This document shows, piece after piece, positions 2,786 through 47,000 of a DNA stretch of 64,000 nt (the first letter of the stretch is position 1; the number at the start of each line of letters is the position of its first letter). The stretch comes from Cyrtodaria siliqua. Lineage: Eukaryota; Mollusca; Bivalvia; Adapedonta; Hiatellidae. The stretch lies in NCBI GenBank assembly GCA_037043455.1, contig JAWPHD010001347.1, forward strand, positions 124,001-188,000, written 5' to 3'. The notes beneath the pieces were generated by a model. The model did no database searches, had not been told where the DNA came from, and worked only from the letters and a program-made list of their open reading frames with translations. The position numbers were made by a program, and so were the translations under genes.

Positions 2786-2789
2786 TAAA

Positions 2790-5215: not shown

Positions 5216-5221
5216 AAAAAA

Positions 5222-6390: not shown

Positions 6391-6402
6391 TGCGCATGCG
6401 CA
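6391..6402. promoter_or_regulatory. NRF-1-type palindrome TGCGCATGCGCA
   Basis: A perfect 12-bp match to the NRF-1 consensus palindrome in otherwise AT-rich DNA, 4.3 kb upstream of the Roquin ATG. Candidate promoter element for the unmapped first exon. Confidence 0.3.
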
Positions 6403-6778: not shown

Positions 6779-6788
6779 GTCACGTGAC
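6779..6788. promoter_or_regulatory. E-box GTCACGTGAC
   Basis: A perfect 10-bp palindrome with a CACGTG core, of the type bound by USF/MITF/TFEB-class bHLH proteins. 390 bp from the NRF-1-type site. Confidence 0.3.
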
Positions 6789-6950
6789 ACTTGTTACTGA
6801 GAATAGGAACAATGTAAACACGGAATATTTACGGCAAAGGGGTAAAGCTACTCAACCGGCAAAAATATTTATGAGATAACTAGTTTTGATTTAGATACAT
6901 TAAAAAATCAACATAAAAATGACGATATCTGGTATACAGCCAGTACAATT

Positions 6951-10680: not shown

Positions 10681-11023
10681 ATGCCGATACAAGCCCCACA
10701 GTGGACTGAGTTTTTATCATGTCCAGTGTGTTATAATGTCTTCAACGAGACTCACTACCGGCCGATCAGTCTCGCGTGTGGTCACACTGTGTGTCGATCA
10801 TGCCTGTCCAAGTTCCAGCAGAGAAAATGCCCGTTTGATCAGTCGCTAATCACCAGGGATGTGGAAGATCTGCCCGTGAACTTTGCCCTATTACAGCTGG
10901 TGAGTGCCACGGCAATGCCAGACAACCGTAAGGGATGCGTGCCGGAAGAATACAAGAGGTATTACGAGTCAGCCAAATCATGTGTAGAAGAGCTGGCCCT
11001 GTTGCTGAAACCAGTGTCCTCCA
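10681..11023 (+). CDS. Roquin coding exon 1: RING finger
   Basis: Encodes residues 1-114 plus one base. The zinc ligands are visible as C14-x2-C17, C33, H35, C38, C41, C50, with Asp53 in CPFD taking the eighth position, as I recall for Roquin RINGs. The flanking MPIQAPQW and [11 protein letters not shown] segments are typical of the family. The exon ends at a GTGAGT donor in phase 1. Its C-terminal part (about residues 87-114) begins the helical region before ROQ. Confidence 0.95.
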
Positions 11024-14000
11024 GTGAGTAGTCCTTCCTAGTTATCCTCTATTGCCTCCAGAGGGCGATATTATAAACTATTAAAAGTGTCGGCTGTCAT
11101 TGCATTCAATGTACATGCCTCCTGTTTGAAAACTAACACATACAAATACGATTTCTTTCAACTATTTTCCATTTATTCCGAGTTCTTTATCAAACTTATT
11201 GTATTAACAATATCAACAGGTCACAGTCTATGGTTAGAAAGTCAAATAAGTGAAGGGGATCTGATTGTCTTGTAACAGTCTATTACTCTTGCTGTCTCTG
11301 GCTGTGTCTTGCCGGGGCTCGAGCCAGTATTAAAAACAAAAACAATCCTTGCCCCAATAAACATACCTATAATGTAAGTTACGTGTTGATGAAAAACTCT
11401 GTAACCCATCATTTATCTATGTTTAAATTTTCAGTTTAATTATTTTTATATGTTATATATTCATATTATATTTTGATGAAAAAAATTAACTGGCCTGGCA
11501 GATTACAAAAATAAAACATTTTTTGGCCCGAGCCTAATTTTACTGACCTCTGTCATCGAACACATGGCCAAATTCTGTCTTTTCATAACTTTGCTATTAA
11601 ATAATAGCACAAACAAAATTATAGACTAATGTTTCCCTACCTGAAGCAGGAGATTCTTTTTGTTTCTGTCTAAGATTACTTTGTGGTTAAGTATTATAAT
11701 TTCCCATTTTATTCAGGTACAACAGGATCCATAATCTCAGCACAGCCTCCCACCAATGGTGCCTGCCCAAACTCTCCCAGCTGTGTCCTCAGCCGTCCCA
11801 TGCAACGTAAACTGATCACATTGGTCAACTGTCAGCTTGTGGAGGAAGAGGGTCGAGCCCGTGCGCTCCGTGCAGCAAGATCACTCGGTGAGAGGACCGT
11901 GACGGAGCTTATTCTACAACACCAGAATCCACAACAGCTGTCGTCAAACCTTTGGGCGGCCGTCCGGGGTAGGGGATGTCAGTTTCTGGGACCTGGTATG
12001 TTGTTATTATTCTCTGATTTCTGTATTAAGGAGTGGAACCAGGGTGATGTGTTTGAAAAGTACAGCTGCATACATTTCTAAAACACTATGACATTAACAT
12101 CTACAATTGTTTTCCTTTATTCTTACTTTACAATCTGGTATTTGACGATGGTATAGAAGAGCGGTTTAAGATTCCGTTGACACATGTAAGGTCAGTGTTT
12201 TTCCCCCTTATTGAAGTGGTACCGAAAACGGTACTACTCCCAATGGCAAAAAGCATGTTGTTGTTTTTTTAATATTTAGAGTGAAACTTTAAACAGAAGA
12301 AGTGGGGAAATATATTCTTTTAGGTGAGGGTAATGAAATACTACAAGAGAATGTATTCATGGTAATGTGTTTTCAAAGTATTTAAGCATACAATATTACT
12401 TTTGTTTGATAGTGAAAAATTCCTAGTTTAAGGCAAAACAAAGCGATTTTTTTCAATTGAATGGGTACCGGTACCATTCGCAAAAAGGTGAAAAAATGTC
12501 GCTGACGGTTATATTTGGACAGCGACGCCTGAGGAAGATGAAGGATGATGATTGCCGTCAGACATGCCACTGCATCAGAGATCTGCAGCTCTAAAGCGCA
12601 GGGCCTTATCTACTGAGCTAGCAACACCGCTTCATATCTGGTGATATGATCAATATGAAAACATTGACAGCAGAAAAGAGTGTTTGTGAGATCTTTATAA
12701 ATGTATTTATCATGCAACTAATGTTTCTATTGTACATATACAGCTACCGTCTACTAACCTAATATTTTCCGCCCAACTATTGTATTATGCTAGTGGCTAC
12801 ACGCGCATTTATTTAATGACTTAAAAAGTCAGGTATCAGCCATTTACACAATAGTTTTATGCTTATCAATTTAGAAATGCAATACATTTATCAAAAGAAA
12901 GTATTTTGCATTTATTATTGATATATACTTAAACGACAAACATTTTTTGCCAAAGTTACTTCCCCTGACAAACTAACCTCTATTTGTATTTTGTCGGCAG
13001 CAGACGTAAACTGTACATTTCAATTTCCATTGTTTTTTAGGTATATTATGTTATGTGATAGTTGTATTTTGGCTCGTGTCGAAAAGTGATAAACCGCATT
13101 TATCACTTTTCTTACACTCGTCAAAATACAGCTGACATTCTAAGTCACTAACAATGTAATTCTTACATATTTGATTGGCAGGTATGCAGGAAGAAGTACT
13201 CAAGTTGATCCTACTGGCCCTGGAGGACGGGTCTGCCCTGTCCAGGAAGGTTCTGGTCCTGTTTGTGGTACAGAGACTAGAGGCCCAGTACCCGCAGGCT
13301 TCCAAAACTGCCATAGGTCATGTGGTACAGCTCTTGTACAGGGCTTCATGTTTCAAGGTAATGCACTACAGCGATTCAGGGCTTTCCTTTATAGCCGGTA
13401 CCTTCCTTCATTTAGCTGACCGGCTACTTTTGTACAGCAACAAAAGAAAGAACTAATTCACCTGTCTGCTTTTAACCCTTAACCCGCTTAAGCACGACTA
13501 TAATAGCCTTTGCGTCCATTGTAAACCCAGATTAGCCTGCGAGTAAGAGTAACTCACAGGCTGATCAGGTTTTACAATGTCCATCTGCTGATCAGTCATT
13601 TCATTTTCCTCAAAACACCCCTTTGTCACATAAATGGGACAGTCCATCATATATATGTAGCGGGTTAAGGATTAAAACTCTCCCTGTAACTCAACAACAA
13701 AGGGAAAGCCCTGTGATTATCATCAGGTCCAGTAGAAATGCACCATTGCTTTTGTTTCTTCGCTGTATATAGGGATTGATTTATGTCAAGAGACAAAAAA
13801 TGCTCATTTTTTCTGAAAAGATACTGGATTATAAAATTGATGCTTGATACATACTTGACGATTGCCGTTTGTCCCTTTATTAAAGTATCTAGTACAAAAT
13901 TGGTCATATACATTCTTGATTGCAGTATTCATAACCCCTAATCTAAGCTCTGTAACCCAGGATGAGAGAAACCATTGTTTTAAAGTGTCCGTAATAATCA

Positions 14001-17000
14001 GATTCACATGACCAAATACAGTTTTGATAAAGAAATTATGGCACTTTTACTTTGTACTTTGGGTTGCTAGTGTTTGTTTTGCTTTCATCCAAATATGTTT
14101 TGGGGTCAAATAGAGACCCATGTGTTTTTGACAGTGTATTTATATCAGGAAACCATTCCAAGTTTACTGCCATTGTATGTCAACTTCTAATTTTCTCTAT
14201 TGGGGGCCATCGTTTCTGAAACTAGAACTTGTGTTTATGATTTATTTTCAGGTTCTATTGCAAAGTTGCGAAAAAGGATTTTTCTTCTATTTATAAACAC
14301 CAGATTTGTTTTAATTGGCCAAGTTCATCATGAAAGTAGGGGTCTTTTTACGCACAATTGTTTTCTCTGTATTATACATTTCCATGGATATCTCTTTCTG
14401 AAGAGAAGTGTTTAAAATCACACTTTCCATGACAGGTGACAAAACGTGACGAGGAGTCATCACTGATGCAACTGAAGGAGGAATACAGAACATATGAGAT
14501 GTTGCGCCGTGAACACGACTCCCAGATAGTGCAGATAGCCATGGAGGCAGGTCTGAGGATCGCGCCGGACCAGTGGTCCTCTCTGCTGTACGGAGATTCG
14601 ACACATAAATCACACATGCAGTCTATTATTGACAAGGTTAGTGACTGTCACTCGCCTTTTGGGTTTATACAAATCATGTTGTTATTCAGGTATACAATTT
14701 TCATACTTGTTGTTAGATGCAGTAACGGCAAATTGGAAACAACTTGATATAACTGATTGTTTTGTGTCCTTAAAGAGTACGTTCATAGATCCATACAAAT
14801 CCCAGGCTTCCCACGGGTCCTTGAAATCCTTGAAAGTACTTGAATTTGAAAAAAAATTACAAGGCCTGGAAAGTGCTTGAAAATCTGATAAGGTACTTGA
14901 AAGTCCTTAAATTCTTGATTTTTGCTGTTCATCCCAAAAATGGCTAATTTGTTGCTGTTTTGGGCGTGTCGCTTGCGCGAATATTAGTCCTTAAATTTTG
15001 GGAAAAATGTCCTTGAAAGTCCTTGAAAAGTCCTTGAATTTGGCCTTCCAATAAGGGTGGGAATCCAGATTAATCCGTAACCCCCAATAGTGCCTCTTTG
15101 GCCAGCATAGTAAAGCCGCTGCGTCCAAAACTTTCTCGTCTCTCACCGTTGGGGTTTGCGAATCACACGGAGCTCAACTTGTCAAGTGATGAATTGTCAG
15201 TTCTTGCGGAATGGCAGGAGATATACAGTACTGGTTCTACTGAGGAAAAATGGGATGGACTGCAACTACCACAAAAAAATCGACCGTCACAGTGGTACAT
15301 GGCCTAAAATGTTCTAAAAATGACATAAAACACCATTCAAACAAACCGTAATCCCTGTCTACCATTTTTCAAGCTCAGTATGGACACTAATGTTTACCAT
15401 GTATTCTGTTGTATATTTTTGTTTTTGTTACAACCTGTGTACGTGTTATTATTGTAAACATCTACAGCTACAGACCCCACAGACTTTCTCCCAGAGTGTT
15501 AGTGAGCTGTTGATAGCCCTACAGAGAACTGGAGACCCCCATAACTTACAGAAACTCAGACCCGAGCTGGAGTTCCTCTCCAGTATAGACCCCAGTCCAG
15601 GTAAGTATTGATAAATCAGGGCTGTCCCCAGGGTTCTTTTACTTGTTCCCATTCAAAAGTGCTCAGCTGATATTTAAATAAAAAAATCAAATTGAAATTC
15701 AATTCTCTTTTCCATTTTCCATCGTTCAGTTGTCTACCTAAGGCTGTATGTATCCTGGTGCAGAAAAAAACAGCAAACTAGTTTTCTTTGTACTGCAGAC
15801 TGCCTGAAGTAACCTTACCTTACTGTCAAACTAGTAAAGAAAACAAACTTTATATGGTTAATCTCGATTTGGACAGAAAAATCATAGTTTCAGGATATAT
15901 AGAGAAAATTATGTCAGTGTGTTTTACTATCAAGTTTATTAGGCGAGGCTTAGAAAACGAAGAATGGCGAGGCTCTGCCGAGCCATTTTCGTTTTTGTGC
16001 CGAGCCTAATAAACTTGATAGTAAAAGGCACTGACATAATATTCTATTTATCATGTAGATTATCCACATTTTTTGTATGAATTACTATTATTACCTATTT
16101 CTCAGAATGTTACGCTTATTGAGGACGCCGCCATGTTGTTGTTTTTAGCTCTACTGATCAGAGATCAGCAGAGCTTATGCCGTGGTGCGGTGTCCGTCGT
16201 CCGTCCGTCTGTCCGTCCGTCCGTTAACTTTTTTTTGTAGCGACTACTTCTCTGAAACTACTGAATGGATTTTCATGAAACTTTACAGAAATGTTGCCCA
16301 TGAAGTCTAGTTGATCCTAGCAAAAATTCATGTAGATATGAAATCCAAGATGGCCGCCAAATCTGAAAATAGGTTTTTAGCTCTACTGATCAGAGATCAG
16401 CAGAGCTTATGCCGTGGTGCGGCGTCCGTCGTCCGTCCGTCCGTCCGTCCGTCCGTCCGTCCGTCTGTCTGTCCGTCCGTCTGTCCGTTAACTTTTTTTT
16501 GTAGCGACTACTCCTCTGAAACTACTGAATAGATTTTCATGAAACTTTACAGAAATGTTGCCCATGAAGTCTAGTTGATCCTAGCAAAAATTCATGTTGA
16601 TGTGAAATCCAAGATGGCCGCCAAAGCTAAAAATAGATTTTTTAAATTCAAGTTTGTAGCGACTACTTCTTGAAAACTATAAGTGATATTGATATGGGAC
16701 TTTTTCTAAAATGATCAGCATGACATGATGTTGGTCCTTGTCGAAAATCGTTTTGATTTGACGTTAAACATGGCTACCAGCGGCCATCTTTGTTTACATA
16801 GAGTTATATAATGAAAACTTGTAGCGACTACTCCTCTGAAACTACTTGACGGATTTTCATGAAACTTCACAGGAATGTTGCTCTTGATGTCTAATTGATC
16901 CTAGCAAAATTTCAGGTCGGCCGGAAATTCAAGATGGCCGCCACGGCTAAAAATAGATTTTTAAAAAATAAGTTTGTAGCGACTACTTCTTGAAAACTAT

Positions 17001-20000
17001 AAGAGATATTGATATGGGACTTTTTCTAAAATGATCAGCATGACATGATGTTGGTCCTTGTCTAAAATCGTTTTGATTCGACGTTAAACATGGCTGCCAG
17101 CGGCCATCTTTGTTTACATAGAGTTATATAATGAAAACTTGTAGCGACTACTCCTCTGAAACTACTCGACGGATTTTCATGAAACTTCACAGGAATGTTG
17201 CTCTTGATGTCTAATTGATCCTAGCAAAATTTCAGGTTGGCCGGAAATTCAAGATGGCCGCCACGGCTAAAAATAGATTTTTAAAAAATAAGTTTGTAGC
17301 GACTACTTCTTGAAAACTATAAGAGATATTGATATGGGACTTTTTCTAAAATGATCAGCATGACATGATGTTGGTCCTTGTCGAAAATCGTTTTGATTCG
17401 ACGTTAAAAATGGCTGCCAGCGGCCATCTTTGTTTACATAGAGTTATATAATGAAAACTTGTAGCGACTACTCCTCTGAAACTACTTGACGGATTTTCAT
17501 GAAACTTCACAGGAATGTTGCTCTTGATGTCTAATTGATCCTAGCAAAATTTCAGGTTGGCCGGAAATTCAAGATGGCCGCCACGGCTAAAAATAGATTT
17601 TTAAAAAATAAGTTTGTAGCGACTACTTCTTGAAAACTATATTAAGAGATATTGATATGGGACTTTTTCTAAAATTATCAGCATGACATGATGGTTATCC
17701 GAGTCGAACATTATTTTGATTCGACGTTAAACGTGGCTGCCAGTGGCCATCTTTGTTTACATAGAGTTATATAATGATAACTTGTAGCGACTACTCCTCT
17801 GAAAATACTAGACGGATTTTCATGAAACTTCACACGAATGTTGCTCTTGATGTCTAATTGATCCTTGCAAAATTTCAGGTCGGCCGGAAATTCAAGATGG
17901 CCGCCATGGCTAAAAATAGATTTTCAAAATACAAGTTTGTAGCGACTACTTCTTGAAAACTATAAGTGATATTGATATGGGACTTTTTCTAAAATGATCA
18001 GCATGACATGATGGTTATTCAAGTCGAACATTATTTTCATTCGACGTTAAACATGGCTGCCAGTGGCCATGTATGTTTACATAAGAGTTATATAATGATA
18101 ACTTGTAGCGACTACTCCTCTGAAACTACTTGACGGATTTTCATGAAACTTCACACGAATGTTGCTCTTGATGTCTAATTGATCTTAGCAAAATTTCAGG
18201 TCGGCCGGAAATTCAAGATGGCCACCATGGCTAAAAATAGATTTTTAAAAAATAAGTTTGTAGCGACTACTTCTTGAAAACTATAAGAGATATTGATATG
18301 GGACTTTTTCTAAAATTATCAACATGACATGATGGTTATCCGAGTCGAACATTATTTTGATTCAATGTTAAACATGGCTGTCAGTGGCCATCTTTGTTTA
18401 CATAGAGTTATATAATTAAAACTTGTAGCGACTACTCCTCTGAAACTACTTGACGGATTTTCATGAAACTTCACAGGAATGTTGCTCTTGATGTCTAATT
18501 GATCCTAGCAAAATTTCAGGTCGGCCGGAAATTCAAGATGGCCACCAAGGCTAAAAATAGATTTTCAAAAAAACAGTTTGTAGCGACTACTTCCTGAAAT
18601 CAAAATCAATCAGTAGAGCTTCAAGGTCATTGACCTCTTGTTAAAAAACAAGTTTGTAGCGACTACTTCTTGAAAACTCTAAGGGATATTGCTATGGGAC
18701 TTTTTCTCAAATGATCAGCATGACATGATGTTGGTCCTTGTCGAAAATCGTTTTGATTCGACGTTAAACATGGCTGCCAGCGGCCATCTTTGTTTACATA
18801 GAGTTATATAATCAAAACTTGTAGCGACTACTTCTCTGAAACTACTTGACGGATTTTCATGAAACTTCACAGGAATGTTGCTCTTGATGTCTTAATTGAT
18901 CCTAGCAAAATTTCAGGTCGGCCGGAAATTCAAGATGGCCACCACGGCTAAAAATAGATTTTTAAAAAATAAGTTTGTAGCGACTACTTCTTGAAAACTA
19001 TAACAGATATTGATATGGGACTTTTTCTAAAATGATCAGCATGACATGATGTTGGTCCTTGTCGAAAATCGTTTTGATTCGACGTTAAACATGGCTGCCA
19101 GCGGCCATCTTTGTTTACATAGAGTTATATAATGAAAACTTGTAGCGACTACTCCTCTGAAACTACTTGACGGATTTTCATGAAACTTCACAGGAATGTT
19201 GCTCTTGATGTCTAATTGATCCTAGCAAAATTTCAGGTCGGCCGGAAATTCAAGATGGCAGCCACGGCTAAAAATAGATTTTTAAAAAATAAGTTTGTAG
19301 CGACTTCTTCCTGAAATTCAAGATGGCCGCCACGGCTAAAAATAGATTTTTAAAAAATAAGTTTGTAGCGACTACTTCTTGAAAACTATAAGAGATATTG
19401 ATATGGGACTTTTTCTAAATTTATCAGCATGACATGATGGTTATCCGAGTCGAACATTATTTTTATTCGACGTTAAACATGGCTGCCAGTGGCCATCTTT
19501 GTTTACATAGAGTTATATAATGAAAACTTGTAGCGACTACTCCTCTGAAAATACTTGACGGATTTTCATGAAACTTCACAGGAATGTTGCTCTTGATGTC
19601 TTATTGATCCTGGCAAAATTTCAGGTCGGCCGCAAATTCAAGATGGCCGCCATGGCTAAAAATAGATTTTCAAAATACAAGTTTGTAGCGACTACTTCTT
19701 GAAAACTATAAGTGATATTGATATGGGACTTTTTCTAAAATGATCAGCATGACATGATGGTTATTCAAGTCGAACATTATTTTGATTCGACGTTAAACAT
19801 GGCTGCCAGTGGCCATGTTTGTTTACATAGAGTTATATAATGATAACTTGTAGCGACTACTCTTTGAAACTACTTGACGGATTTTCATGAAACTTCACAC
19901 GAATGTTGCTCTTGATGTCTAATTGATCTTAGCAAAATTTCAGGTCGGCCGGAAATTCAAGATGGCCGCCATGGCTAAAAATAGTTTTTTAAAAAATAAG

Positions 20001-23000
20001 TTTGTAGCGACTACTTCTTGAAAACTATAAGAGATATTGATATGGGACTTTTTCTAAAATGATCAGCATGACATGATGGTTATACGAGTCGAACATTATT
20101 TTGATTCAATGTTAAACATGGCTGTCAGTGGCCATCTTTGTTTACATAGAGTTATATAATGAAAACTTGTAGCGACTACTCCTCTGAAACTACTTGACGG
20201 ATTTTCATGAAACTTCACAGGAATGTTGCTCTTGATGTCTAATTGATCCTGGCAAAATTTCAGGTCGGCCGGAAATTCAAGATGGCCACTACAGCTAAAA
20301 ATAGATTTTCAAAAAAACAGTTTGTAGCGACTACTTCCTGAAATCAAAATCAATCAGTAGAGCTTCAAGGTCATTGACCTCTTGTTTGTTTGTTTTATGA
20401 CGTCAGGCAACGTTACGTGGATGACGTCAGATAACGTTACGTACAATAAACGCCGAGGGATTCCGCATTAATTTGCTCTATTGGTCAGTGCCTAATAAAG
20501 CAAAATTTAATAGGTCACCCCTTTATTAGGCAGAAAAGTGCACATCTGCATGATAAATGTGTTTTGTAGACAACTAAGTAATGTCATTATGTATTAAAAT
20601 CAAATGTGAGAGTGTGAATCACATTGTTCAGGTGATAAAACTAGTATTTTGTAGATACCAACTTGCAGGCAAACATTGCTCTTTCATTTGTGAATCTCCA
20701 CTCCTCAGATGTTCCGAGTCCGTCTTGGGAGAATATGGAAGGTGTGATGAAGGCCGTGAAGACGGTTGTCGAGGGACTCGTCTACTTCCTGCAGAACTCT
20801 GGCACCAAGAAACACGACTTTCTCACCCCGTTCAATGTACGCTACAAGACGAGTCTGTGTCGGGATTACGCTGACAGGGGGATTTGCCCTCGTGGGACAA
20901 GTTGTACATTCGCTCACTCGGAGGATGAACTAGAGAGGTAAGTAGGTCAACATGTTTTGTTAGTACGCATTTCACTAAAAACAACATTGAACTATCGTCT
21001 AGAGTCAATCTGGCTTATTTTATATAGGTGGCTAATTCTATACACTTCAGTAAATATCTCTGTTTTCGTAATTGTGCTTTTTCTTTACTTCAGGGACAGT
21101 TAGGTCGACTTAATGTTAAGTTGATTGATCTGTGATAGTTCAGTCGGTCGACTGTTTCTTCAGTTGTTCAAATATTTAGAAAAGTCTTCAGCACGATAGT
21201 GTAGGGGTTTTATATAGTGTTGTTCTAGTCTGTATGTACGTTCACACCCACCTAGGTAAAATATACAGTACTGGTTCCACTTGGGAAAAATGGGGTAGTG
21301 CCACCCTTAAAAATATTTAGGTTTGCTCTTTCCCGACCCAAATTTCAAATTTTGGGTAGCTCGGTAAGCAAATATTTTTTTATTTTATTTTAAAAAGCAA
21401 AAGTTAACAAAATAAAAGAAATGGCATTGATCTTTCAAATTGGTGATATTAACCAAAAAAAAAAGATGTTCTAAAACTAGGAAAAATAATTGGGGTCCAG
21501 CTCCTTTTTTAGTGGGTCGGTCGGGAAAGGGCAAACAAAATATTTTTAAGTGTGGCCTGGTCTTTCTCCACCACAACAAAATTATGGCCTAACCATTTAA
21601 ACAAAAACACAAATCACCTATATGACTACAACACATTGCAGCCTTAGTTGGTCACTATGACTGACCTTGTCTACTTTTTACATTCCATGGATTCTGTTAA
21701 GCTTGTCATTACTTCCCATTCTATGGCAACTTCATCCTTTGTCTCATCTCCTTCTAAGGTTGCAGTCCCAATATAACCTATTATGAAGTGTTAACCCTTA
21801 ACCCGCTAAGCACGACTATAATAGCCTTTGTGTCCATTGCAAACCCAGATCAGCCTGCGAGTAACTCGCTTTGAAAATGGAATGGTCTTAACACTTTCAA
21901 CGCCAAATAATTTTTGGAATTTTCTCCCAGCGCCAGCTAAATTAAATAGTGTGGTTGTTGAAATGGCTATAACTTGAGAAATAATAAAGATATCAGCTTG
22001 AAATTGTCAGTGATAATAGATTTTATAATATTGTAATGGTAAAAGTACAACAAATACTTACCGGTATTATACTTCATAAAGACTTGTCAGGTGTCACCAA
22101 ATGTTATGTAATTATGTAAACAAACATGAACTCGAAGTTGAGGATGCGTCTGTATCACCTGTAGAATTATTATTTTGGGATTCTCCATCTTCCAAAATAT
22201 CATCTGAGTCACCTTCACTATCCCTGTCATTTAGGACGATATCCAACACTTCTCTGCTCGTATACTTTCTCCTTTTTCGAGCGGACGCCATTTTAGAATC
22301 GAACATTTTCAGCAACATATTATATAATTTTTGGGGGAAAGTTTGTGTATTTTCATTCATAAACCTTGTTCTGATATTGGAAAATCCCCGGACGGTGTTG
22401 CAGTAATATTTACACTATTAAAACGTTCCAACCATACTATACGATGTCGACTGGAGTCGCCTATGGCGCTCTGCCGAGATGTCGACTGGAGTTGCCTGCG
22501 GTGACAAAAGGGTTAATTCAAAAAAAGAACAGTCCATTATATATATATATATTCATATATGTATAGTCTTTCAAAAGGAAAGTTAATTCAATATTAAATA
22601 AATAGTTTAAATTTTTTAAGTAAATTCCATCTCCTTGTTTAAACAGAAATGTTGTTTATCATAACGTCAACCATTTAAACATTTCTGTGATTTTTCTTGA
22701 AAAAGAACAAGTTCGAAAATTTGAAGAAGAGTTACTATTTATTTAACATTATATATATATGTAGCGGGTTGAGGGTTAAAGGGATGTTAACCCCATTTCA
22801 TTCATTCACCAATAGTCCTACACTCTTCACACTGTTCAATCATTGCTTACTGTTACTTAAAAAATAACAAAAACAAGGCCTTTTTCAATGATGCTGCTAT
22901 CTTTTTAAAATGTAGAGCAGGGCATCCATGTCTCAAGGACACATTTTTATGCCCCTTTCAGGGTTTCGGGGGCATATCCGTCCGTCAGTCCGCAGTTCGT

Positions 23001-32000: not shown

Positions 32001-35000
32001 ATCATAGCAATGCTTCCTGCTAAGATTCGTCAAATCCAACATGGCATTGATCAACAAAAAAATAAAGACAAAAAAAATGAAAGGAAAAAAAACAACAGAA
32101 AAAATGATATAAATTTTTAAAAACAATTTAAGAAATAAAAATCAATCACATGAAAAATAATAATAATTAAAAAGAAAAATTTAAAAAAAGGAAAAAAAGG
32201 AAGAAAAAAAAGCATTTAAACAAAAAAAAACATACTGGTACTAATTAAAAAAAAAGGAAAAAAATCTGGTAAAGTTTCGTAAAGTTCGGGTGAGAAATGA
32301 AGGCCCTATTGTCTTAACGAAGCAAAATATAGCATTTTTAACTAAATCAAGGGCCATAACTCCGCTGGTACTGGTCCGATCTGGCAGGTTTTCAAACTTT
32401 TCCGAGCTTTCATTGACATTAACAATCTAGTAAAGTTTGGTAAAGATCGGATGAAAAATGAAGGCCCTATCATCTTAACGAGGCAAAATATAGCATTTGC
32501 AACTAAATCAAGGGCTATAACTCCGATGTTATTGGCCCGATTTGGCTGGTTTTCGAACTTGCCCGAGCTTTCATTGATATTAACAATCTGTTAAAGTTTG
32601 GTAAAGATCGGATGAAAAATGAAGGCCCTATCGTCTTGAGGCAAAATATAGCATTTTCAACTAAATCAAGGGCCATAACTCTGCTGTTACTGGTCCGATC
32701 TAGCTGGTTTTCGAACTTGTCCGAGCTTTCATTGATATTAACAAACTGTTAAAGTTTGATAAAGATCGGATGAGAAGTGAAGGCCCTGTTGGTAAAAGTT
32801 AACGGACGGACGGACGGACAGACGACGGACGGACGACCGACAACTCGCCATCCCATAAGCTCTGCTGGCCCTTGGCCAGTAAAGCTAGAAACAGGTTTTA
32901 GCGACTACTACTGAAAAATTGTTAGTGATATTGATAGGGACTTTTTCTAAAATTATCAGCATGACATGATGTTGATCCTTGTCAAAAATCATTTTGATTT
33001 GACATTAAACATGGCTGCCGGCATCTTTGTTTACATAGAGTTATATAGTAAATACTTGTAGCGACTACTCTTCTGAAACTACATTAAGGATTTTCATGAA
33101 ACTTAATAGAAATGTTGCTCTTGATGTGTAGTAGATCTTAACAAAATTTCAGGTCTGCCGGAAATTCAAGACGGCCGCCATGGCTAAAAATAAATTTGTT
33201 GGTTCTTGTTCTAGATCTGTTCTCCATATTTTATCTCGATGTACATGGAGAATGAGCCTGCCATGTTCATTCCTGTTAGGCACCAGTCCATATAACCTTT
33301 CATTTGTTGGTGCGCCTTAAAAGCCCAATACAATTCAATTGTTGAAAAATATTTTGATTCGACATAAAACATGGTTGCCAGCGGCCATCTTTGTTTACAT
33401 AGAGTTATATATAAAAACTTGTAACGACTACTCTGAAACTACTGGACAGATTTTCATGAAACTTCACAGGAATTCTTATCTAGCTTTCAGAACCTGCCAG
33501 TAGAGCTTCAAGGTTATTGACCTCTTGTTTTATCAATTTAATAAAGAAATAATGTTTTCAAACAATTCTAAATTGCATACCAATCCTGATGTACTCGCTT
33601 TAACTGCATATTATGTATTTCTTATTTGACATTTAATTTTATCATTTGAATACCTGTATGTTATTCTTTTTGCAGGTACTGGTATGCCTGGGCCTTGTTT
33701 TCCAATGCATCCTACAATGATGTATGGGCAGTATCCCTACCCACACATGCACCCATGCATGCCCCCTTACGGGTACCCTCAGGGTTACATGGCCCCGGAC
33801 AATTCCCGTATGCAGTATGACAATTATTACACATCCCTTAACCCTTATGCCGAACCATGGAACCCCACATCGGGCCATGCAATGCCTTATCAGGAGCAGT
33901 ACCGTGGGATGCAGAATGACAACTGTTCCGTCTGTAACCAACGGCAACAGGAGGAGCAGCGTCAGCAGCATTTCCAGCAGCATCAAAACTTACCACAAGT
34001 TCATCAGCAGTGTCAACATCATAATGATATTCAGCAGCAGCAAGGTGGTATAGGTCAGGTACAGCAGGGTCAAGGTCAGCAGCAAGGTCACCAGCAGCAA
34101 GGTCAGCAGCAGGGTCAAATTAGACCGCCACAGCAACAACATCAAACAGGTGAAAAGAAGCCATATACACAGCAGGCGACACCACCACAACAACCGACAC
34201 ATCAAAAGCAACAACAAGGACCGACTCCCATAGCGACACATAGCGAGTCAAAACAACTGGAGCAAAACTATCGCCAGCTAAATTACGAACAACAGGTGGG
34301 TAACAAACCAAACCCTCCACAGCAGCAACAACGACAACAACAAAAACAAGCACAAATTTTGCAGGAGAAGCACAACGTAAAAGATCAGAATGAGCCACGT
34401 GCAGTACAGAAACAACAACCAATGAAGTATCCAACCAACCAGGATGTACAGGTATGATTTATAAATAAAATTCATAACTTTGACATCATCAAAATAATTC
34501 AGTTGACCAATCAGTAGCCGATAAAAGGACACACCTCCACATTTGGATAGGTTATCCCCTCGGTATTCAATATAAAATATTTGAAGTGAGAATTTTATTT
34601 AAAGTTGGATTTTTTTTGCGTACAGCTATATGTATCGTCTATTTCAAAACACCGGTATGGATACAGTTAATTTAAATCAAATTGTAATATTGTGTTTACA
34701 AACTGGAAATATAATTCTATCTACAGAAGAAAGAGTTGTAAGATTAAATGTTATTAATGTTATATCATTTATCTTATAAAAAATAATCATTTCAGAGTAA
34801 AACGCGAGAAGTGGAGTCACCCAGGGCTGAGTCTGATTTACCTGGGTTAAAAGTGATTACAGAGCCTGCTGTCAAGTTGCATGTAAGTAAGAATTAGTGT
34901 AGAGTACATGTAAGAATTAGTGTACTGCACATGTTAGTAAGAATTAGTGTACTGCACATGTAAGTAAGAATTAGTGTACAGCACATGTAAGTAAGAATTA

Positions 35001-38000
35001 GTGTACAGTACATGTAAGTAAATGTAAGTAAGAATTAGTGTACACTACATGAAAGTAAGAATTAGTGTACAGTACATGTAAGTAAATGTAAGTAAGAATT
35101 AGTGTACACTACATGTAAGTAAATGTAAGTAAGAATTAGTGTACACTACATGTAAGTAAATTTAAGTAAGAATTAGTGTACAGTACATGTAAGTAAATGT
35201 AAGTAAGAATTAGTGTACAGTACATGTAAGTAAATGTAAGTAAGAATTAGTGTACACTACATGAAAGTAAGAATTAGTGTACACTACATGTAAGTAAATG
35301 TAAGTAAGAATTAGTGTACACTACATGTAAGTAAATGTAAGTAAGAATTAGTGTACACTACATGTAAGTAAATGTAAGTAAGAATTAGTGTAAACTACAT
35401 GTAAGTAAATGTAAGTAAGAATTAGTGTACACTACATGTAAGTAAGAATTAGTGTACAGTACATGTAAGTAAATGTAAGTAAGAATTAGTGTACAGTACA
35501 TGTAAGTAAATGTAAGTAAGAATTAGTGTACACTACATGAAAGTAAGAATTAGTGTACACTACATGTAAGTAAATGTAAGTAAGAATTAGTGTAAACTAC
35601 ATGTAAGTAAATGTAAGTAAGACTTAGTGTACACTACATGTAAGTAAATGTAAGTAAGAATTAGTGTACAGTACATGTAAGTAAATGTAAGTAAGAATTA
35701 GTGTACAGTACATGTAAGTAAATGTAAGTAAGAATTAGTGTACACTACATGAAAGTAAGAATTAGTGTACACTACATGTAAGTAAATGTAAGTAAGAATT
35801 AGTGTAAACTACATGTAAGTAAATGTAAGTAAGAATTAGTGTACACTACATGTAAGTAAATGTAAGTAAGAATTAGTGTACAGTAAATGTAAGTAAGAAT
35901 TAGTGTACAGTACATGTAAGTAAATGTAAGTAAGAATTAGTGTACACTACATGAAAGTAAGAATTAGTGTACACTACATGTAAGTAAATGTAAGTAAGAA
36001 TTAGTGTACACTACATGAAAGTAAGAATTAGTGTACACTACATGTAAGTAAATGTAAGTAAGAATTAGTGTACAGTACATGTAAGTAAATGTAAGTAAGA
36101 ATTAGTGTACACTACATGAAAGTAAGAATTAGTGTACACTACATGTAAGTAAATGTAAGTAAGAATTAGTGTACACTACATGAAAGTAAGAATTAGTGTA
36201 CACTACATGTAAGTAAATGTAAGTAAGAATTAGTGTACAGTACATGTAAGTAAATGTAAGTAAGAATTAGTGTACACTACATGAAAGTAAATGTAAGTAA
36301 GAATTAGTGTACAGTACATGTAAGTAAATGTAAGTAAGAATTAGTGTACACTACATGAAAGTAAGAATTAGTGTACACTACATGTAAGTAAATGTAAGTA
36401 AGAATTAGTGTACAGTACATGTAAGTAAATGTAAGTAAGAATTAGTGTACACTACATGAAAGTAAGAATTAGTGTACAGTACATGTAAGTAAATGTAAGT
36501 AAGAATTAGTGTACAGTACATGTAAGTAAGAATTAGTGTACACTACATGAAAGTAAGAATTAGTGTACACTACATGTAAGTAAATGTAAGTAAGAATTAG
36601 TGTACAGTACATGAAAGTAAGAATTAGTGTACACTACATGTAAGTAAATGTAAGTAAGAATTAGTGTACAGTACATGTAAGTAAATGTAAGTAAGAATTA
36701 GTGTACACTACATGAAAGTAAGAATTAGTGTACACTACATGTAAGTAAATTAAAGTAAGAATTAGTGTACAGTACATGAAAGTAAGAATTAGTGTACACT
36801 ACATGTAAGTAAATGTAAGTAAGAATTAGTGTACAGTACATGTAAGTAAATGTAAGTAAGAATTAGTGTACACTACATGAAAGTAAGAATTAGTGTACAC
36901 TACATGTAAGTAAATGTATGTAAGAATTAGTGTACAGTACATGTAAGTAAATGTAAGTAAGAATTAGTGTACACTACATGAAAGTAAATGTAAGTAGGAA
37001 TTAGTGTACAGTACATGTAAGTAAATGTAAGTAAGAATTAGTGTACACTACATGAAAGTAAGAATTAGTGTACACTACATGTAAGTAAATGTAAGTAAGA
37101 ATTAGTGTACAGTACATGTAAGTAAATGTAAGTAAGAATTAGTGTACACTACATGAAAGTAAGAATTAGTGTACACTACATGTAAGTAAATGTAAGTAAG
37201 AATTAGTGTACAGTACATGTAAGTAAATGTAAGTAAGAATTAGTGTACACTACATGAAAGTAAGAATTAGTGTACACTACATGTAAGTAAATGTAAGTAA
37301 GAATTAGTGTACAGTACATGTAAGTAAATGTAAGTAAGAATTAGTGTACACTACATGTAAGTAAATGTAAGTAAGAATTAGTGTAAACTACATGTAAGTA
37401 AATGTAAGTAAGAATTAGTGTACACTACATGAAAGTAAGAATTAGTGTACACTACATGTAAGTAAATGTAAGTAAGAATTAGTGTACACTACATGAAAGT
37501 AAGAATTAGTGTACACTACATGTAAGTAAATGTAAGTAAGAATTAGTGTACACTACATGAAAGTAAGAATTAGTGTACACTACATGTAAGTAAATGTAAG
37601 TAAGAATTAGTGTACAGTACATGTAAGTAAATGTAAGTAAGAATTAGTGTACACTACATGAAAGTAAGAATTAGTGTACACTACATGAAAGTAAGAATTA
37701 GTGTACACTACATGTAAGTAAATGTAAGTAAGAATTAGTGTACAGTACATGTAAGTTAATGTAAGTAAGAATTAGTGTACACTACATGTAAGTAAATGTA
37801 AGTAAGAATTAGTGTAAACTACATGTAAGTAAATGTAAGTAAGAATTAGTGTACACTACATGAAAGTAAGAATTAGTGTACAGTACATGTAAGTAAATGT
37901 AAGTAAGAATTAGTGTACTGTACATGTAAGTAAATGTAAGTAAGTATTAGTGTACACTACATGTAAGTAAATGTAAGTAAGAATTAGTGTACAGTACATG

Positions 38001-41000
38001 TAAGTAAATGTAAGTAAGAATTAGTGTACACTACATGTAAGTAAATGTAAGTAAGAATTAGTGTACAGTACATGTAAGTAAATGTAAGTAAGAGTTAGTG
38101 TACACTACATGAAAGTAAGAATTAGTGTACACTACATGTAAGTAAATGTAAGTAAGAATTAGTGTACAGTACATGTAAGTAAATGTAAGTAAGTATTAGT
38201 GTACACTACATGTAAGTAAATGTAAGTAAGAATTAGTGTACAGTACATGTAAGTAAATGTAAGTAAGAATTAGTGTACACTACATGTAAGTAAATGTAAG
38301 TAAGAATTAGTGTACAGTACATGTAAGTAAATGTAAGTAAGAATTAGTGTACAGTACATGTAAGTAAGAATTAGTGTACACTACATGTAAGTAAATGTAA
38401 GTAAGAATTAGTGTACAGTACATGTAAGTAAATGTAAGTAAGAATTAGTGTACACTACATGTAAGTAAATGTAAGTAAGTATTAGTGTACACTACATGTA
38501 AGTAAGAATTAGTGTACACTACATGTAAGTAAATGTAAGTAAGAATTAGTGTACAGTACATGTAAGTAAATGTAAGTAAGAATTAGTGTACACTACATGT
38601 AAGTAAATGTAAGTAAGTATTAGTGTACAGTACATGTAAGTAAGAATTAGTGTACACTACATGTAAGTAAATGTAAGTAAGTATTAGTGTACAGTACATG
38701 TAAGTAAGAATTAGTGTACACTACATGTAAGTAAATGTAAGTAAGTATTAGTGTACACTACATGTAAGTAAATGTAAGTAAGAATAAGTGTACACTACAT
38801 GTAAGTAAGAATTAGTGTACACTACATGTAAGTAAATGTAAGTAAGAATTAGTGTACAGTACTTGTAAGTAAATGTAAGTAAGAATTAGTGTACACTACA
38901 TGTAATTAAATGTAAGTAAGTATTAGTGTACACTACATGTAAGTAAGAATTAGTGTACACTACATGTAAGTAAATGTAAGTAAGAATTAGTGTACAGTAC
39001 ATGTAAGTAAATGTAAGTAAGAATTAGTGTACACTACATGTAAGTAAATGTAAGTAAGTATTAGTGTACAGTACATGTAAGTAAGAATTAGTGTACACTA
39101 CATGTAAGTAAATGTAAGTAAGTATTAGTGTACAGTACATGTAAGTAAGAATTAGTGTACACTACATGTAAGTAAATGTAAGTAAGTATTAGTGTTCACT
39201 ACATGTAAGTAAATGTAAGTAAGAATTAGTGTACAGTACATGTAAGTAAATGTAAGTAAGAATTAGTGTACAGTACATGTAAGTAAGAATTTGTGTACAC
39301 TACATGTAAGTAAATGTAAGTAAGAATTAGTGTACAGTACATGTAAGTAAATGTAAGTAAGAATAAGTGTACACTACATGTAAGTAAGAATTAGTGTACA
39401 CTACATGTAAGTAAATGTAAGTAAGAATTAGTATACAGTACTTGTAAGTAAATGTAAGTAAGAATTAGTGTACACTACATGTAAGTAAATGTAAGTAAGA
39501 ATTAGTGTACACTACATGAAAGTAAGAATTAGTGTACAGTACATGTAAGTAAATGTAAGTAAGTATTAGTGTACAGTACATGTAAGTAAATGTAAGTAAG
39601 AATTAGTGTACACTACATGAAAGTAAGAATTAGTGTACAGTACATGTAAGTAAATGTAAGTAAGTATTAGTGTACAGTACATGTAAGTAAATGTAAGTAA
39701 GAATTATTGTACAGTACATGCAAGTAAGAATTAGTGAACATTACTTGTAAGTAAGAATTAGTGTACAGTACATGTAAGTAAGAATTAGTGTACAGTGCAT
39801 GTAAGTAAGAATTAGTGTACAGTACATGTGTGTTCCGGTACAAGTATGTAAGTATGTAAATATCCCATCCTCTTGAGGGTGCCAGTGGATATTATCAACC
39901 CGAGAATGTTATGTCGACCGAGGCGATAGCCGAACAAATTATTATATACCGGACAAACTAATATACTCGATAATGAAGAAAAAAGTGTTAGTTATTGTTG
40001 AAAAAATCTATTTTTAGAACTAGGCTTTTCAAAAAGCTAGCGGGATGATATTTTGCGCTATCACCCGCTATGATAGTGCGAAATATCGACCCGGCAGGGT
40101 ATGGGGATTTTACATGGAGTGTTTACAGTGAGGTATAATCAATCAAAATATTGTATATTCCATGGCTAGTACAATTATGTTGTATATTCTATGGGCAGTA
40201 CAAGTGTATTCACAGAGTATTGACTTTTCCAGGTCCAGTAGAAGTTTTGTATTTTCTATGGCTAGTACAGTTGTGTTGTATATTCTATGGGCAGTACAAA
40301 TGTATTCACAAAGTATTGACTTTTCCATGTCCAGTAGAAGTTTTGTATATTCCATGGCTAGTACAATTATGTTGTATATTCTATGGGCAGTACAAGTGTA
40401 TTCACAAAGTATTGACTTTTCCAGGTCCAGTAGAAGTTTTGTATATTCCGTGGCTAGTACAGTTGTGTTGTATATTCTATGGGCAGTACAAATGTATTCA
40501 CAAAGTATTGACTTTTCCATGTCCAGTAGAAGTTTTGTATATTCCATGGCTAGTACAATTATGTTGTATATTCTATGGGCAGTACAAGTGTATTCACAAA
40601 GTATTGACTTTTCCAGGTCCAGTAGAAGTTTTGTATATTCCGTGACTAGTACAGTTGTGTTGTATATTCTATGGGCAGTACAAGTGTATTCACAAAGTAT
40701 TGACTTTTCCATGTCCAGTAGAAGTTTTGTATATTCCGTGGCTAGTACAGTTGTGTTGTATATTCTATGGGCAGTACAAATGTATTCACAAAGTATTGAC
40801 TTTTCCATGTCCAGTAGAAGTTTTGTATATTCCATGGCTAGTACAATTATGTTGTATATTCTATGGGCAGTACAAGTGTATTCACAAAGTATTGACCTTT
40901 CCAGGTCCAGTAGAAGTTTTGTATATTCCATGGCTAGTACAATTATGTTGTATATTCTATGGGCAGTACAAGTGTATTCACAAAGTATTGACCTTTCCAT

Positions 41001-44000
41001 GTCCAGTAGAAGTTTTGTATATTCCATGGCTAGTACAATTATGTTGTATAATCTATGGGCAGTGTAGTTATATGATATCAAAATGTTGTATATTCCACGG
41101 GCAGTATAGTTATATGATATCAAAATGTTGTATATTCCATGGGCAGTATAGTTATATGATATCAAAATGTTGTATATTCCATGGGCAGTATAGTTATATG
41201 ATATCAAAATGTTGTATATTCCATTGGCAGTATAGTTATTGATATCAAAATGTTGTATATTCCATGGGCAGTATAGTTATATGATATCAAAATGTTGTAT
41301 ATTCCATGGGCAGTATAGTTATATGATATCAAAATGTTGTATATTCCATGGGCAGTATAGTTATAAGATATATTCCATGGGCAGTATAGTTATATGATAT
41401 CAAAATGTTGTATATTCTATGGGCAGTATAGTTATATGATATCAAAATGTTGTATATACCATGGGCAGTATAGTTATATGATATCAAAATGTTGTATATT
41501 CCATGGGCAGTATAGTTATATGATATCAAAATGTTGTATATTCCATGGGCAGTATAGTTATATGATATCAAAATGTTGTATATTCCATGGGCAGTATAGT
41601 TACATGATATCAAAATGTTGTATATTCTATATGCAGTATAGTTATATGATATCAAAATGTTGTATATTCCATGGGCAGTATAGTTATATGATATCAAAAT
41701 GTTGTATATTCCATGGGCAGTATAGTTATATGATATCAGAATGTTGTATATTCTATGGGCAGTATAGTTATATGATATCAGAATGTTGTATATTCTATGG
41801 GCAGTATAGTTATATGATATCAAAATGTTGTATATTCTATGGGCAGTATAGTTATATGATATCAAAATGTTGTATATTCTATGGGCAGTATAGTTATATG
41901 ATATCAAAATGTTGTATATTCCATGGGCAGTATAGTTATATGATATCAAAATGTTGTATATTCCATGGCCACTGCAAGTTTGAATCCCACTGAGAACTCA
42001 ACTTCTAAGGGAGAAAGTGTCGATTCTTACGGATGTCGGGAGGTATACAGTACTGGTTTTACCCAGGAATAAGTTGGTGGTCTGCCTCCACCACAAAAAA
42101 AAGACCGTCGTTTATGGCCTCACATGTTGTAAAAATGACGTAAAACACTTTCAAACAAACAAATCCATGGCCAGTACAAATTATAAGCAAACTATTGTTT
42201 ACATTCCAGAATAAGTATGTGTTAGTAGAACAAGTTGTGTAATAGCCCAAAATATTATAAATGGAATGTAGGCATATATTCAAACATGTTTTTAGCTTGA
42301 CTGTTCAGAGATCAGCAGAGCTTATGCCGTGGTGTGGCGTCCGTCGTCCGTCTGTCCGTCCGTCTGTCCGTCCGTCTGTCCGTAAACTTTTATTTGTAGC
42401 GACTACTCCTTTGAAACTACTGGATGGATATTCATGAAACTTTACAGAAATGTTGCCCATGAAGTCTAGTTGATCCTAGCAAAAATTCATGTTGATGCGA
42501 AATCCAAGATGGCCACCACAGCTAAAAAATAAGTTTGTAGCGACTACTTCTTGAAAACTATAAGTGATATTGATATGGGACTTTTTCTAAAATGATCAGC
42601 AAGACATGATGTTGGTCCTTGTCAAAAATCGTTTTGATTTGACGTTAAACATGGCTGCCAGTGGCCATCTTTGTTTACATAGAGTTATATAGTAAAAACT
42701 TGTAGCGACTACTCCTCTGAAACTACTGGATGGATATTCATGAAACTATACAGAAATGTTGCCCATGAAGTCTAGTTGATCCTAGCCAAAATTCATGTTG
42801 ATGCGAATCCCAAGATGGCCGCCAAAGCTAAAAATAGATTTTTAAAATACAAGTTTGTAGCGACTACTTCTTGAAAACTATAAGTGATATTGATATAGGG
42901 CTTTTTCTAAAATGATCAGCATGACATGTTATTGGTCCTTGTCAAAAATCATTTTGATTCGACGTTAAACATGACTGCCAGTGGCCATCTTTGTTTACAT
43001 AGAGTTATATAATGAAAACTTGTAGCGACTACTCCTCTGAAACTACCTGACGGATTTTTGTGAAACTTCACACGAATGTTGCTCATGATGTCTAATTGAT
43101 CCTAGCAAAACTTCAGATCGGCCGGAAATTCAAGATGGCCGCCACGGCTAAAAATAGATTTTCAAAAAACAAGTTTGTAGCAACTACTTCTTGAAAACTA
43201 TAAGTGATATTGATATGGGACTTTTTCTAAAATGATCAACACGACATGATGTTGATCATAGTCGAACATTATTTTGATTCGACGTTAAACATGGCTGCCA
43301 GCAGCCATCTTTGTTTACATAGAGTTATATAGTAATAACTTGTAGCAACTACTCCTCTGAAACTACTTGCCGGATGTTCATGAAACTTCACAGGAATGTT
43401 GCTCTTGATGTCTAGTTGATCCTAGAAAAATTTCAGGCTGTCCGGAAATTCAAGATGGCCACCACGGCTAAAAATAGATTTAAAATAAATAAATTTGTAG
43501 CGACTACTTCTTGAAAACTGTAAGTGATATTGATATGGGACATTTTCTAAAATGATCAGCATTACATTATGTTGATCCTTGTCGAAATTTATTTCAATGC
43601 GACGTTAAACATGGCTGCCAGCGGCCATCTTTGTTTACATAGATTTATATAGTACAAACTTGTAGCGACTGCTCCTCTGAAGCTACTTGACAAATTTTTA
43701 TGAAACTTCACAGGAGTGTTGCTCTTGATGTCTTATTGATCCCAGATTTTTTTTAGGTCGGCCGGAAATTCAAGATGGCCGCCATGGCTAAAAACAGATT
43801 TTTATAAAAAAAGTTTGTAGCGACTACTTCTTGAAAACTGTAAGTGATATTGATATGGGTCTTTTTCTAAAATGATCAGTATGACATGATCTTGATCCTT
43901 GTCGAAAATTATTTTGATTCAACATTAAACATGGGCGCCAGTGGCCATCTTTGTTAGAGTTTGTACAGTAAAAATTTGTAGCGACTACTCCTCTGAAACT

Positions 44001-47000
44001 ACTTGACGGATTTTCGTGAAACTTCACAGGAATGTTGCTCTTGATGTCTAGTTGATCCTAGCACAATTTCAGGTCTGCCGGAAATTCAAGATGGCCACCA
44101 TAGCTAAACATAGATTTTTTAAAACAAGTTTGTAGCGACTACTACTTGAAAACTGTAAGTGATATTGATATGGGACTTTTTCGGAAATGATCAGCATGAC
44201 AAGATGTTGATCCTTGTCGAAAATATTTTGATTCGACATTAAACATGGCTGCCAGTGGCCATCTTTGTTTACCTAGAGTTATATAATAAAAACTTCAACT
44301 TGTAGCGACTACTCCTATGAAACTACTTGACAGATTTTTATGAAACTTCACAGGAATGCTGAGATAGCTATCTAAATATATCAGTAGAGCTTCAAGGTCA
44401 TTGACCTCTTGTTTTATTGAAAGTTCTGAAAAACTCGGAAAAGGGTGAAAGACTTGATCAAGATATGATCATATAATATTTTATATAAACCAGTATGGAA
44501 GCCACCATTTTGAAAACTATGGCTATGATCTGGAAGGATTAAATATAATGTTGTTAGAGCTTGTTACCTGACATAATTTGCGATTATATTATATCTATCG
44601 TATTTGTATTTACAGCGACAGTTCCTGAGCAACCTTAAGGAGAGACGAAAGTCACTGCTGGCCCAGCTGCAGGAATTACATAATGAGGTAGAGGCTCAGG
44701 AGTTGGAAAAGTGTGAGCCCATCATAGAGGACTTGCCTAACCTGTTTAGGTAACTGACTGTCATTTTAGAATTGATTCTCATTTTTCGGCATTTATGTGG
44801 TTTTAAACGCTGGTAATAAACAGCAAATTCCGTGAAGCGTGTTGGCAATTTGTGGTAAATTTACCATTCGCTACCGGCGTTTAAAATGCGGATCAGTTCT
44901 TATATTTACATTAATGGCCATCACTATTGTACTATTGTTTGGGGCGCTTGTTTCAGCCAAAGTTTTTTTGGACTTTAAAGATAAAATTAATCTACTACCT
45001 AAATAAGTTGTATATCAGTGAAACAGACATTTTTAGTGGTAAATAAAAATACCTTATTTTTCAAAATCGGTCGAGAAATAAAAGTTTCATGTGCGAAACC
45101 TGTTTTTGAGGGGTCATTTTCAATGAAAAATTTGAAAAATATATTTTTTTTGAAATTTTATCCAAAAATGGTTTTAAATTGTTGGATATCAGTAATTTAA
45201 GACACCCTGAAAGTTTTATAGCAAAATATGAAGGATTACTGAAGTTATTTGAAATTGTATAATTTTCTGCTGTAACACCAACAAGGAATTTACATAGGAA
45301 AAGCCCCATCAAAAAATCATTTTGGCTGTAAAATATTTATTTCTCAACTGATTTTCAAAAGTAAAGTAGTTTTAGTTACCACTAAAAATTACAGTTCTAA
45401 TGATATATAACCGATGTACGTTTTATTTAAATTGCTTAAGTTACTTCAGAAAAACCTTTGGCTGAAACAAGCGCCCCAAACAATAAACAATAAAGTGCCT
45501 CAAGAGAATGAAGTGCAAGAGAAACAACTGTGTATTTACAAACAGTGGAATAGCCATTTCATTTTAAAAACAAAGTCAATCACATTACGTGGTCCGAGTA
45601 TTATTTTCATACCCTATCCAACCCCTTCTCCATGAAGTGAAAATGGGGTTGGCTGGGATATGAAATAAAACCTTAATTTTGGTTTAAAAAGTTGGTAAAA
45701 TTAATTATTGTCGAAATATCCGTTATAAAATGCTGTTAGTCCTGCTTTCCCATTGCTTAACTGAATTAAGGCGGGACCCGGTAATGAAGTGTATATAAAT
45801 ATTTACTAGTAGTGTAGATTTTCAGATCTGTATTAATGAGGAATTAATGCCACCTTGATGCCCAACTGCATTATTTTGTATAAGCCATTTAAAATTACTT
45901 AAACTCCATGGCCCGTATTCATAAAGCAACTTAACATGCTTAAGTAGAAAATATTACTAAGTCAGAATTTAAGATTTTTACATATTTTCAAGTGTCCTTG
46001 GCGACACTAAACGGTGTCTATTTTAAGATATATTTATAGCTGTGGTTTTATTAATCCATAGCAATATTAAAACTATAAAGGAGTTCTTAAAACAATAGAA
46101 AAAGGTTTTTAAAAAATAGATAAGTTTTGACTTAAAGGGAGTACATCAGGATTTTCATGGGGGTCTAGGTGTCCGACTAAAAATTGACAAATATTAATAT
46201 TTTCTATTCTACATGGCCAAAACATAATGAATGAGCCTAAAAATTATCCATTATTTGCCAAAAAACTTATTCTGCACAGTAATACGTGCTATCCTAGGTG
46301 ACGCACCAGGGTCAATTTCGGCATTTAATGTACGATTCCGTCCTAGCTATGTGGTGTTTTCAAAGTTTAGATAGTAACACAATGGATCTAACATCATATT
46401 TTGATTGATATAAGTGTTTTATCATGAACTTGAACAATTTTATAATTTAAGATGTTTCTAAAAAAATCCTGATGTACCCCCTTTAAGTTACGATATTGCT
46501 GCTTAGAAGCTTTATGAATATGGGCCCAGGGCTTTGTCAAATAAATAGTGATCTGTATCGTCCCATTTACTCATCTATCTACTTAGGTTTACTTAGGTTG
46601 TGATCTGGGAGATGCAATCAGTAGTTTAAGGTGGTTGTGACCAGGAAAGAACCCCCTAGATTTTAAATAATTAACCAGAATTGCATTTATTTTCTTGAAG
46701 ATATGATGCTTTGGACGCCATTGACTCTGGTGTTCAGCCCAGTACGGTGAAGACTTCCAAGGCACTGGAAACAATCCCTGCTCTACTCGAGTCTAGCATG
46801 CCACCAACGGGGATGATATTTGAGAGACTCGGCGCCATCTCGGGGATACCTCCTCTGGGGATACCTCCTCAGTCCGTCACTGACAGTCTCTTAGCGTCAT
46901 GGACGACGTCAGCATTCAGCAATTCAAACAAGAATGCAGGTTTGTGTCTGTTGTGTTGAATGACTTCTAGGTTTGAATTGCGGCTTAATATATACGCATG

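Follow-up and report, generated by a model that had tools for sequence, protein, structure and literature searches.

The 64-kb window analysed here (64,000 nucleotides of Cyrtodaria siliqua contig JAWPHD010001347.1; C1347:124001-188000) carries an orthologue of Roquin (RC3H) of the bivalve type, and intron 9 of this gene opens with a minisatellite whose first unit contains the splice donor of the intron itself. Exon by exon, Pfam matches to RING, PF21206, PF18386 and PF00642 (the RING, ROQ, ROQ_II and CCCH domains) were all above cut-off, and solved Roquin-1 and Roquin-2 chains match a ROQ exon of the gene. Its top protein matches are from bivalves (best 120 of 1,358, found with a query whose C-terminal part had been built with an erroneous join of 34882 to 52810). 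Over its six N-terminal exons, identity is 84-85% to Dreissena, Mya, Mactra and the database protein P0004. The COX1 gene of the assembly comes nearest to that of Panopea (81%), in keeping with an imparidentian clam, perhaps close to Hiatellidae, to which Panopea belongs. The features central to this analysis are as follows.

10681..20937, + strand: exons 1-6 of the Roquin gene, encoding RING, ROQ, ROQ_II and CCCH (Pfam, gene model)
34796..34882, + strand: Roquin coding exon 9, 87 nt long and in phase 0 at each end, ending ...EPAVKLH (open frame, splice sites, junction homology)
34883..34891, + strand: authentic splice donor GTAAGTAAG, within array unit 1 (sequence, frame, homology)
34880..39829 (end approximate), + strand: donor minisatellite built of 27-mer-type units, ATGTAAGTAAGAATTAGTGTACASTAC (147), and 10-mer-type units, ATGTAAGTAA (98) (parse, counts)
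34881..35011, + strand: left array edge, with five units of 27-mer type ahead of the first 10-mer, the second unit 23 nt long (parse)
39691..39827, + strand: right array edge, with five units of 27-mer type past the last 10-mer (parse)
34883..44615, + strand: intron 9, 9,733 nt, of which the donor array makes up about half (gene model)
44616..44749, + strand: coding exon 10, acceptor tttacag, joined to 34882 (tblastn with bivalve Roquins, sequence, junction)

Coding exon 9 lies between the acceptor atttcag and the donor CAT/GTAAGT. Joined to the exon at 44616-44749, whose product looks coiled-coil-like by eye, it aligns gap-free over the junction to the Roquins of Mactra (EPNAKLYRQSLNTLRERRNSLIQQLQE), Mya and Dreissena; the local alignment of P0004 begins only at the first residue of the 44616 exon. 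Six of 120 listed proteins gave a gap-free block over the junction at a score of at least 45, and we use the three clams (Mactra, Mya and Dreissena) as support because the other three, P0006, P0011 and P0066, look weak. When each of the 818 GTs in the array was joined to exon 44616-44749, the frame stayed open from 34883 alone, and the other 220 GTAAGT copies all reached a stop. Junction homology in three bivalves and this sole frame-keeping GT support, at the level of sequence, a donor at 34882/34883, and with it the earlier claim that the array begins with the authentic donor. The exon end at 34882 in the original prediction likewise holds, and the labels around it change: what was called exon 10 is coding exon 9 when coding exons only are counted from the RING exon, and the former intron 10 extends over 34883-44615, with the array as its first half only. 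Our first gene model joined 34882 to 52810 and was ruled out by homologues, which place exons at 44616 and 46701 in between. A blind scan of 39831-52790 for phase-0 exons returned two weak candidates and missed the 44616 exon, which marks it as a weak scan.

The array is one head-to-tail tandem run of about 4.95 kb that takes in the three terminal bases of the exon, from 34880 on. Parsed by dynamic programming, 34881-39827 resolved into 245 units; among the 27-mer type 145 are exactly 27 bases long, and the 10-mer unit is identical to the first ten bases of the 27-mer. GTAAGT occurs 221 times on the + strand within 34880-39831 and not once on the - strand, which bears out the prediction of about two hundred copies, all in sense. 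The remainder of the window holds 15 on the + strand and 9 on the - strand, and an order-1 model of the composition of the array yielded a mean of 42 copies and a maximum of 65 (200 simulations). Four longer motifs recur within it: CATGTAAGT (110 times), AATGTAAGT (96), GTAAGTAAG (113) and GTAAGTAAAT (94). Contiguity with the exon was also found as predicted, position 34883 being the unit 1 base directly past the exonic CAT in this assembly. That every unit carries the donor is true of most units and fails for 30, in which the T of the donor GT is replaced by A (29 of these read GAAAGT). Position 24 of the ten edge units is G in eight and T in one, one unit is shortened to 23 bases and none has C24; the 10-mers and the C24, T12 and GA variants are confined to the interior between both edges. 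We infer from this pattern a 27-mer repeat that was later reworked from within. No CAGGTAAGT, the signature of recursive-splicing sites, is present anywhere in the array, and the predicted RNA fold of 35100-35350 was not better than that of shuffled sequences (z -1.42; 20 of 200 shuffles equalled or beat it). Within 35100-35350, pairing of UACAU with AUGUA is predicted to be possible where a 10-mer follows, which would put GUAAGUAA in a loop; the first array unit, at the exon, has no 10-mer behind it.

We computed duplex energies with the U1 small nuclear RNA (U1) for the 221 array sites and for 11 donors of the Roquin gene. The true donor scores -7.1 kcal/mol, equal in context and energy to 108 other copies; over all 221 copies, 109 lie at -7.1, 12 at -7.5, 99 at -7.0 and one at -5.5. 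With the strongest of the 11 scored Roquin-gene donors at -14.0 and -12.3 kcal/mol, the array copies are middling U1 sites. Because 108 copies equal the true donor and 12 score slightly better, strength is not what selects it, and equal strength among near-identical copies means that position must single it out. Between equal donors in vitro, the intron-proximal one tends to win. The first copy would be the only one to face the upstream acceptor across a short (87-nt) exon, and it would be made first. The title of one study claims that the transcription machinery retains an upstream donor as it synthesises the intron (PMC8316553), and the puzzle of donor choice has a measured precedent in human ABCA7, where, in the excerpted text, retention of one unit of a variable number tandem repeat (VNTR) is put at about 2%, independent of VNTR length (PMC5954066).

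To place the array in the genome, we searched the 2.88-Gb assembly (26,948 contigs). A 20-base core of the unit, allowing at most two mismatches, matched 157 times in forward and 7 times in reverse orientation, and the array holds 146 of these; the same core read backwards as a control gave 20 and 27 matches, so that outside the array the core stands below control level (the places of the remaining matches are known only among the matches listed). With a 401-base array query, nothing outside the array exceeded 72% identity among the best candidates scored. Since the unit is essentially private to the locus, growth in place is supported, and the sequence makes it most likely that the array grew here. 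That half of the earlier proposal, which had the array growing by duplication of the real donor, therefore stands; the donor is only a candidate for its seed. CAT is all that the end of the exon and the unit clearly have in common: with CAT taken as given, the 12 nt at the exon end resemble four unit tails no more than random DNA does (P 0.16-0.99), so the array repeats the last exonic bases, as had been claimed, clearly only for CAT. The same figures led us to reject derivation of the array from the exon itself. Without the CAT condition, P ranged from 0.02 to 0.54; the minimum belongs to the variant found in the second-last unit and hints faintly at donor seeding.

Large tandem arrays are ordinary in this genome. 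In 20 random 10-kb regions (200 kb) from contigs ranked 100-9000, tandem repeats occupied 40,848 of 200,000 bases (20.4%). Arrays of 500 bp or more numbered 20 in this sample and 14 in the Roquin window; 11 of the sampled ones measured 1 kb or more. GTAAGT-rich, AAGT-type arrays are part of this landscape. Those at L009, L010, L017 and L018 carry 383, 332, 291 and 202 GTAAGT on one strand (2.3-3.2 kb in the stretches examined), and together with L011, L013, L014 and L016 they resemble the donor array in their dense one-strand GTAAGT, up to 383 per 5-kb locus. They differ in having periods of 4 to 72 bases that are mostly AAGT-built, unlike the 27-mer of the Roquin gene, and inspection of their flanks by eye only recognised no exon.

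The closest layout we found is in a human gene. As the excerpts of PMC5954066 describe it, the VNTR in ABCA7 intron 18 has a 25-bp unit and 12 to about 427 units (298 to 10,678 bp), lies directly beside exon 18, and provides the canonical donor with the first two bases of its first unit; use of the next donor retains one unit and causes a frameshift and premature stop (about 2% in the tissues examined), and cycloheximide raises the stop-containing products. As far as those excerpts go, the clam array shares with it abutment on the exon, the authentic donor in unit 1, head-to-tail minisatellite structure, GT in sense in most units, and next copies that break the frame (in the clam 1 of 818 GTs stays open); the unit is 27 rather than 25 bp, and 245 units fall within the upper half of the ABCA7 range. 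Unlike the clam array, the ABCA7 repeat is C-rich, and the excerpts describe no 10-mer sub-unit or GTAAGT copies. Length polymorphism and RNA effects were measured for ABCA7, in another gene and phylum, whereas the clam array is known from one assembled copy. A second human gene, IFI6 (6-16), has a minisatellite said to comprise about 26 copies of 12 bp. It supplies several splice donors (Turri et al. 1995, via PMC4526556) and, on this second-hand account, resembles the clam array in having donor-containing units at an exon end; it differs in its much smaller array, its shorter unit and its downstream units, which give isoforms, whereas each downstream clam copy yields a stop when joined to exon 44616. 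A partial literature search found no earlier report of the clam locus, which we regard as a new, large case of an already known donor-VNTR layout.

Together these results make it probable, in our judgement, that the array is a tolerated, exon-abutting donor minisatellite of the ABCA7 type that grew in place, is spliced mainly from its first copy and is mostly passive. Repeated slippage or unequal exchange would have built the array up where the intron begins; the 27-mer array would have come first, and a 10-mer partial duplicate would have arisen inside it and then spread. The spliceosome would use mainly the first copy, and occasional use of a later one would put an in-frame stop (GTA AGT AAG AAT TAG) in the message and lead to nonsense-mediated decay. 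Because messages from later copies carry the stop and would decay, the array would be tolerated and mostly passive. Which donor is used in RNA, whether mis-spliced messages decay, how the array grew and whether it is passive are all inferred from the DNA.

Several observations weigh against this interpretation. Random placement of the 13 intronic arrays gives P = 0.033 that any abuts an exon within 3 nt, a post hoc figure from 15 exons whose list may be incomplete and of which one, 56493-56657, was placed by homology only; at so low a probability, donor and array may be causally linked. The left edge of the array cannot enter the exon without importing the stop of the unit, so part of the coincidence may be selection. 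In the excerpts on ABCA7, exon 19 skipping rises and expression falls with VNTR length (PMC5954066), so that length there is not neutral. Only 16 singleton substitutions were available in the clam array, so weak selection on the U1 motif is possible. Finally, a search of 330 candidates for short proteins spanning the junction returned none at E <= 0.01.

The origin of the array has another possible, though distinctly less probable, account, in which a genomic AAGT-type repeat arrived at the exon border, by landing there or by spreading, and the old donor, which had not seeded the array, gave way to the first GTAAGT of this repeat. GTAAGT-rich arrays are indeed scattered, with 8 of the 12 non-window contigs matched by the array query carrying 30-383 copies, nearly all on one strand, and another array with GTAAGT in its unit lies in one of the 20 random 10-kb regions. 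The right flank of the donor array, TATGTAAGTATGTAAATA, resembles the L011 unit, AATATGTAAGTA, and the sharing of little beyond CAT between exon tail and unit would fit as well. What speaks against such capture is that no source locus is visible, given the absence of any copy above 72% identity elsewhere and the essentially private core. As to an array borne by a transposon, the right flank at 39832-40150 was compared with 32 loci and matched none of them, a result for these loci that says nothing genome-wide. A function for the array was also part of the original prediction, which offered a U1-binding platform as one option: hundreds of U1 sites in the nascent RNA would guard against premature cleavage and polyadenylation within the long intron, or improve recognition of the upstream donor. 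The strand bias of 221 to none fits this proposal, as does a + strand with no AATAAA and two ATTAAA, and U1 telescripting is treated as an established process in the partial sources consulted. The paucity of poly(A) signals is a consequence of the unit sequence itself, however, and substitutions reach the hexamer at about the neutral rate. Among substitutions private to one 27-mer, 3 of 16 fall inside the GTAAGT hexamer, with 3.6 expected (few events), and among those private to 10-mers, 1 of 2 does; the GT-loss variant spread through its 30 units mostly by copying. This is the pattern that neutral turnover gives, with no excess conservation of the U1 hexamer. With a hexamer kept no better than other unit positions, GT lost from those units, sites of about -7 kcal/mol, and just 15 sense GTAAGT in the rest of the window, including the other large introns of the gene, the platform is left without support and we consider it very doubtful.

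Two further explanations would make the array an active regulator. In one, which we regard as highly improbable, the copies are poison donors whose controlled internal use gives C-terminally truncated Roquin or mRNA that decays, and the length of the array tunes the dosage. All 220 of 220 other GTAAGT copies end in a stop with exon 44616, and longer ABCA7 alleles, in the excerpts, go with less expression and more exon 19 skipping (PMC5954066), as this would predict. No internal copy is outstanding, however, with all but one between -7.0 and -7.5 kcal/mol; one-unit retention in the same excerpts stays near 2% whatever the length (PMC5954066), and the best 120 of 1,358 protein matches include none shown to be from this species. 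In the other, which we hold to be unlikely, the array would act as a dosage dial: U1 would be trapped by more than 200 equal donors beyond the true one, and a share of transcripts that depends on array length would end up as stop-containing, decayed or truncated messages, or with the next exon skipped as in ABCA7. If so, allele length would set the level of Roquin, an RNA-decay immune regulator, in the clam. An assembly artefact, with a wrong copy number or exon adjacency, is the explanation to which we give the least credence. A second contig, C3062 (230,142 bases), covers the same gene: its first 1,500 bases match exon 8 and intron 8 (93% over 1,521 aligned positions, of which 79 are gap positions, many of one base only), and it stops at window position 34660, 136 bases short of exon 9. 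C3062 and the finding that the array query exceeded 72% on C1347 only would fit such an artefact. Against it, C1347 runs gap-free through the exon, the array and beyond; its higher-order structure is ordered and its variant units are coherent. The end of C3062 resembles a noisy haplotig or the end of an overlap, and the array itself may have broken this contig. The copy number in the animal is accordingly uncertain, and exon adjacency comes from C1347 alone. We also noted many one-base indels within Roquin exon 8 on C3062:1-1500 (L042), probably a poor consensus at the contig end.

With this locus, a donor-VNTR layout familiar from human exons is seen in a mollusc too, in a conserved gene. The locus offers a natural test of exon definition against the intron-proximal-donor-wins behaviour of duplicated donors. 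With about one fifth of the sampled genome in tandem repeats, exon-abutting donor arrays may be common here, a prediction that can be tested in bulk.

Other repeats accompany the donor array within the gene and elsewhere in the genome. Downstream in intron 9, the repeat scan found one more feature:

40151..41968, + strand: two further minisatellites, with 96-bp and 42-bp units

A 320-bp tandem family follows at 42523-44358, with 87-89% relatives present as arrays in 3 of the 20 random regions (L021, L026 and L031), which suggests a satellite-like repeat that is very common in this genome. In one random region, L024 (C571:53351-63350), an unrelated minisatellite on the minus strand has GTAAGT in its unit, GTAAGTTGTGATGGGCGTTAAAGCT (25/29 bp, 26 copies in a cluster), and no exon was recognised at its edge in 445 translated bases. 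Other introns of the Roquin gene hold minisatellites at 49341-50356 (56-bp unit) and 61880-62802 (21-bp unit), neither at an exon border. Coding sequence is also involved, as coding exon 7 contains a 21/42-bp minisatellite at 30178-30549, about 17 units of 21 bp, that encodes MAPPTGN-type repeats.

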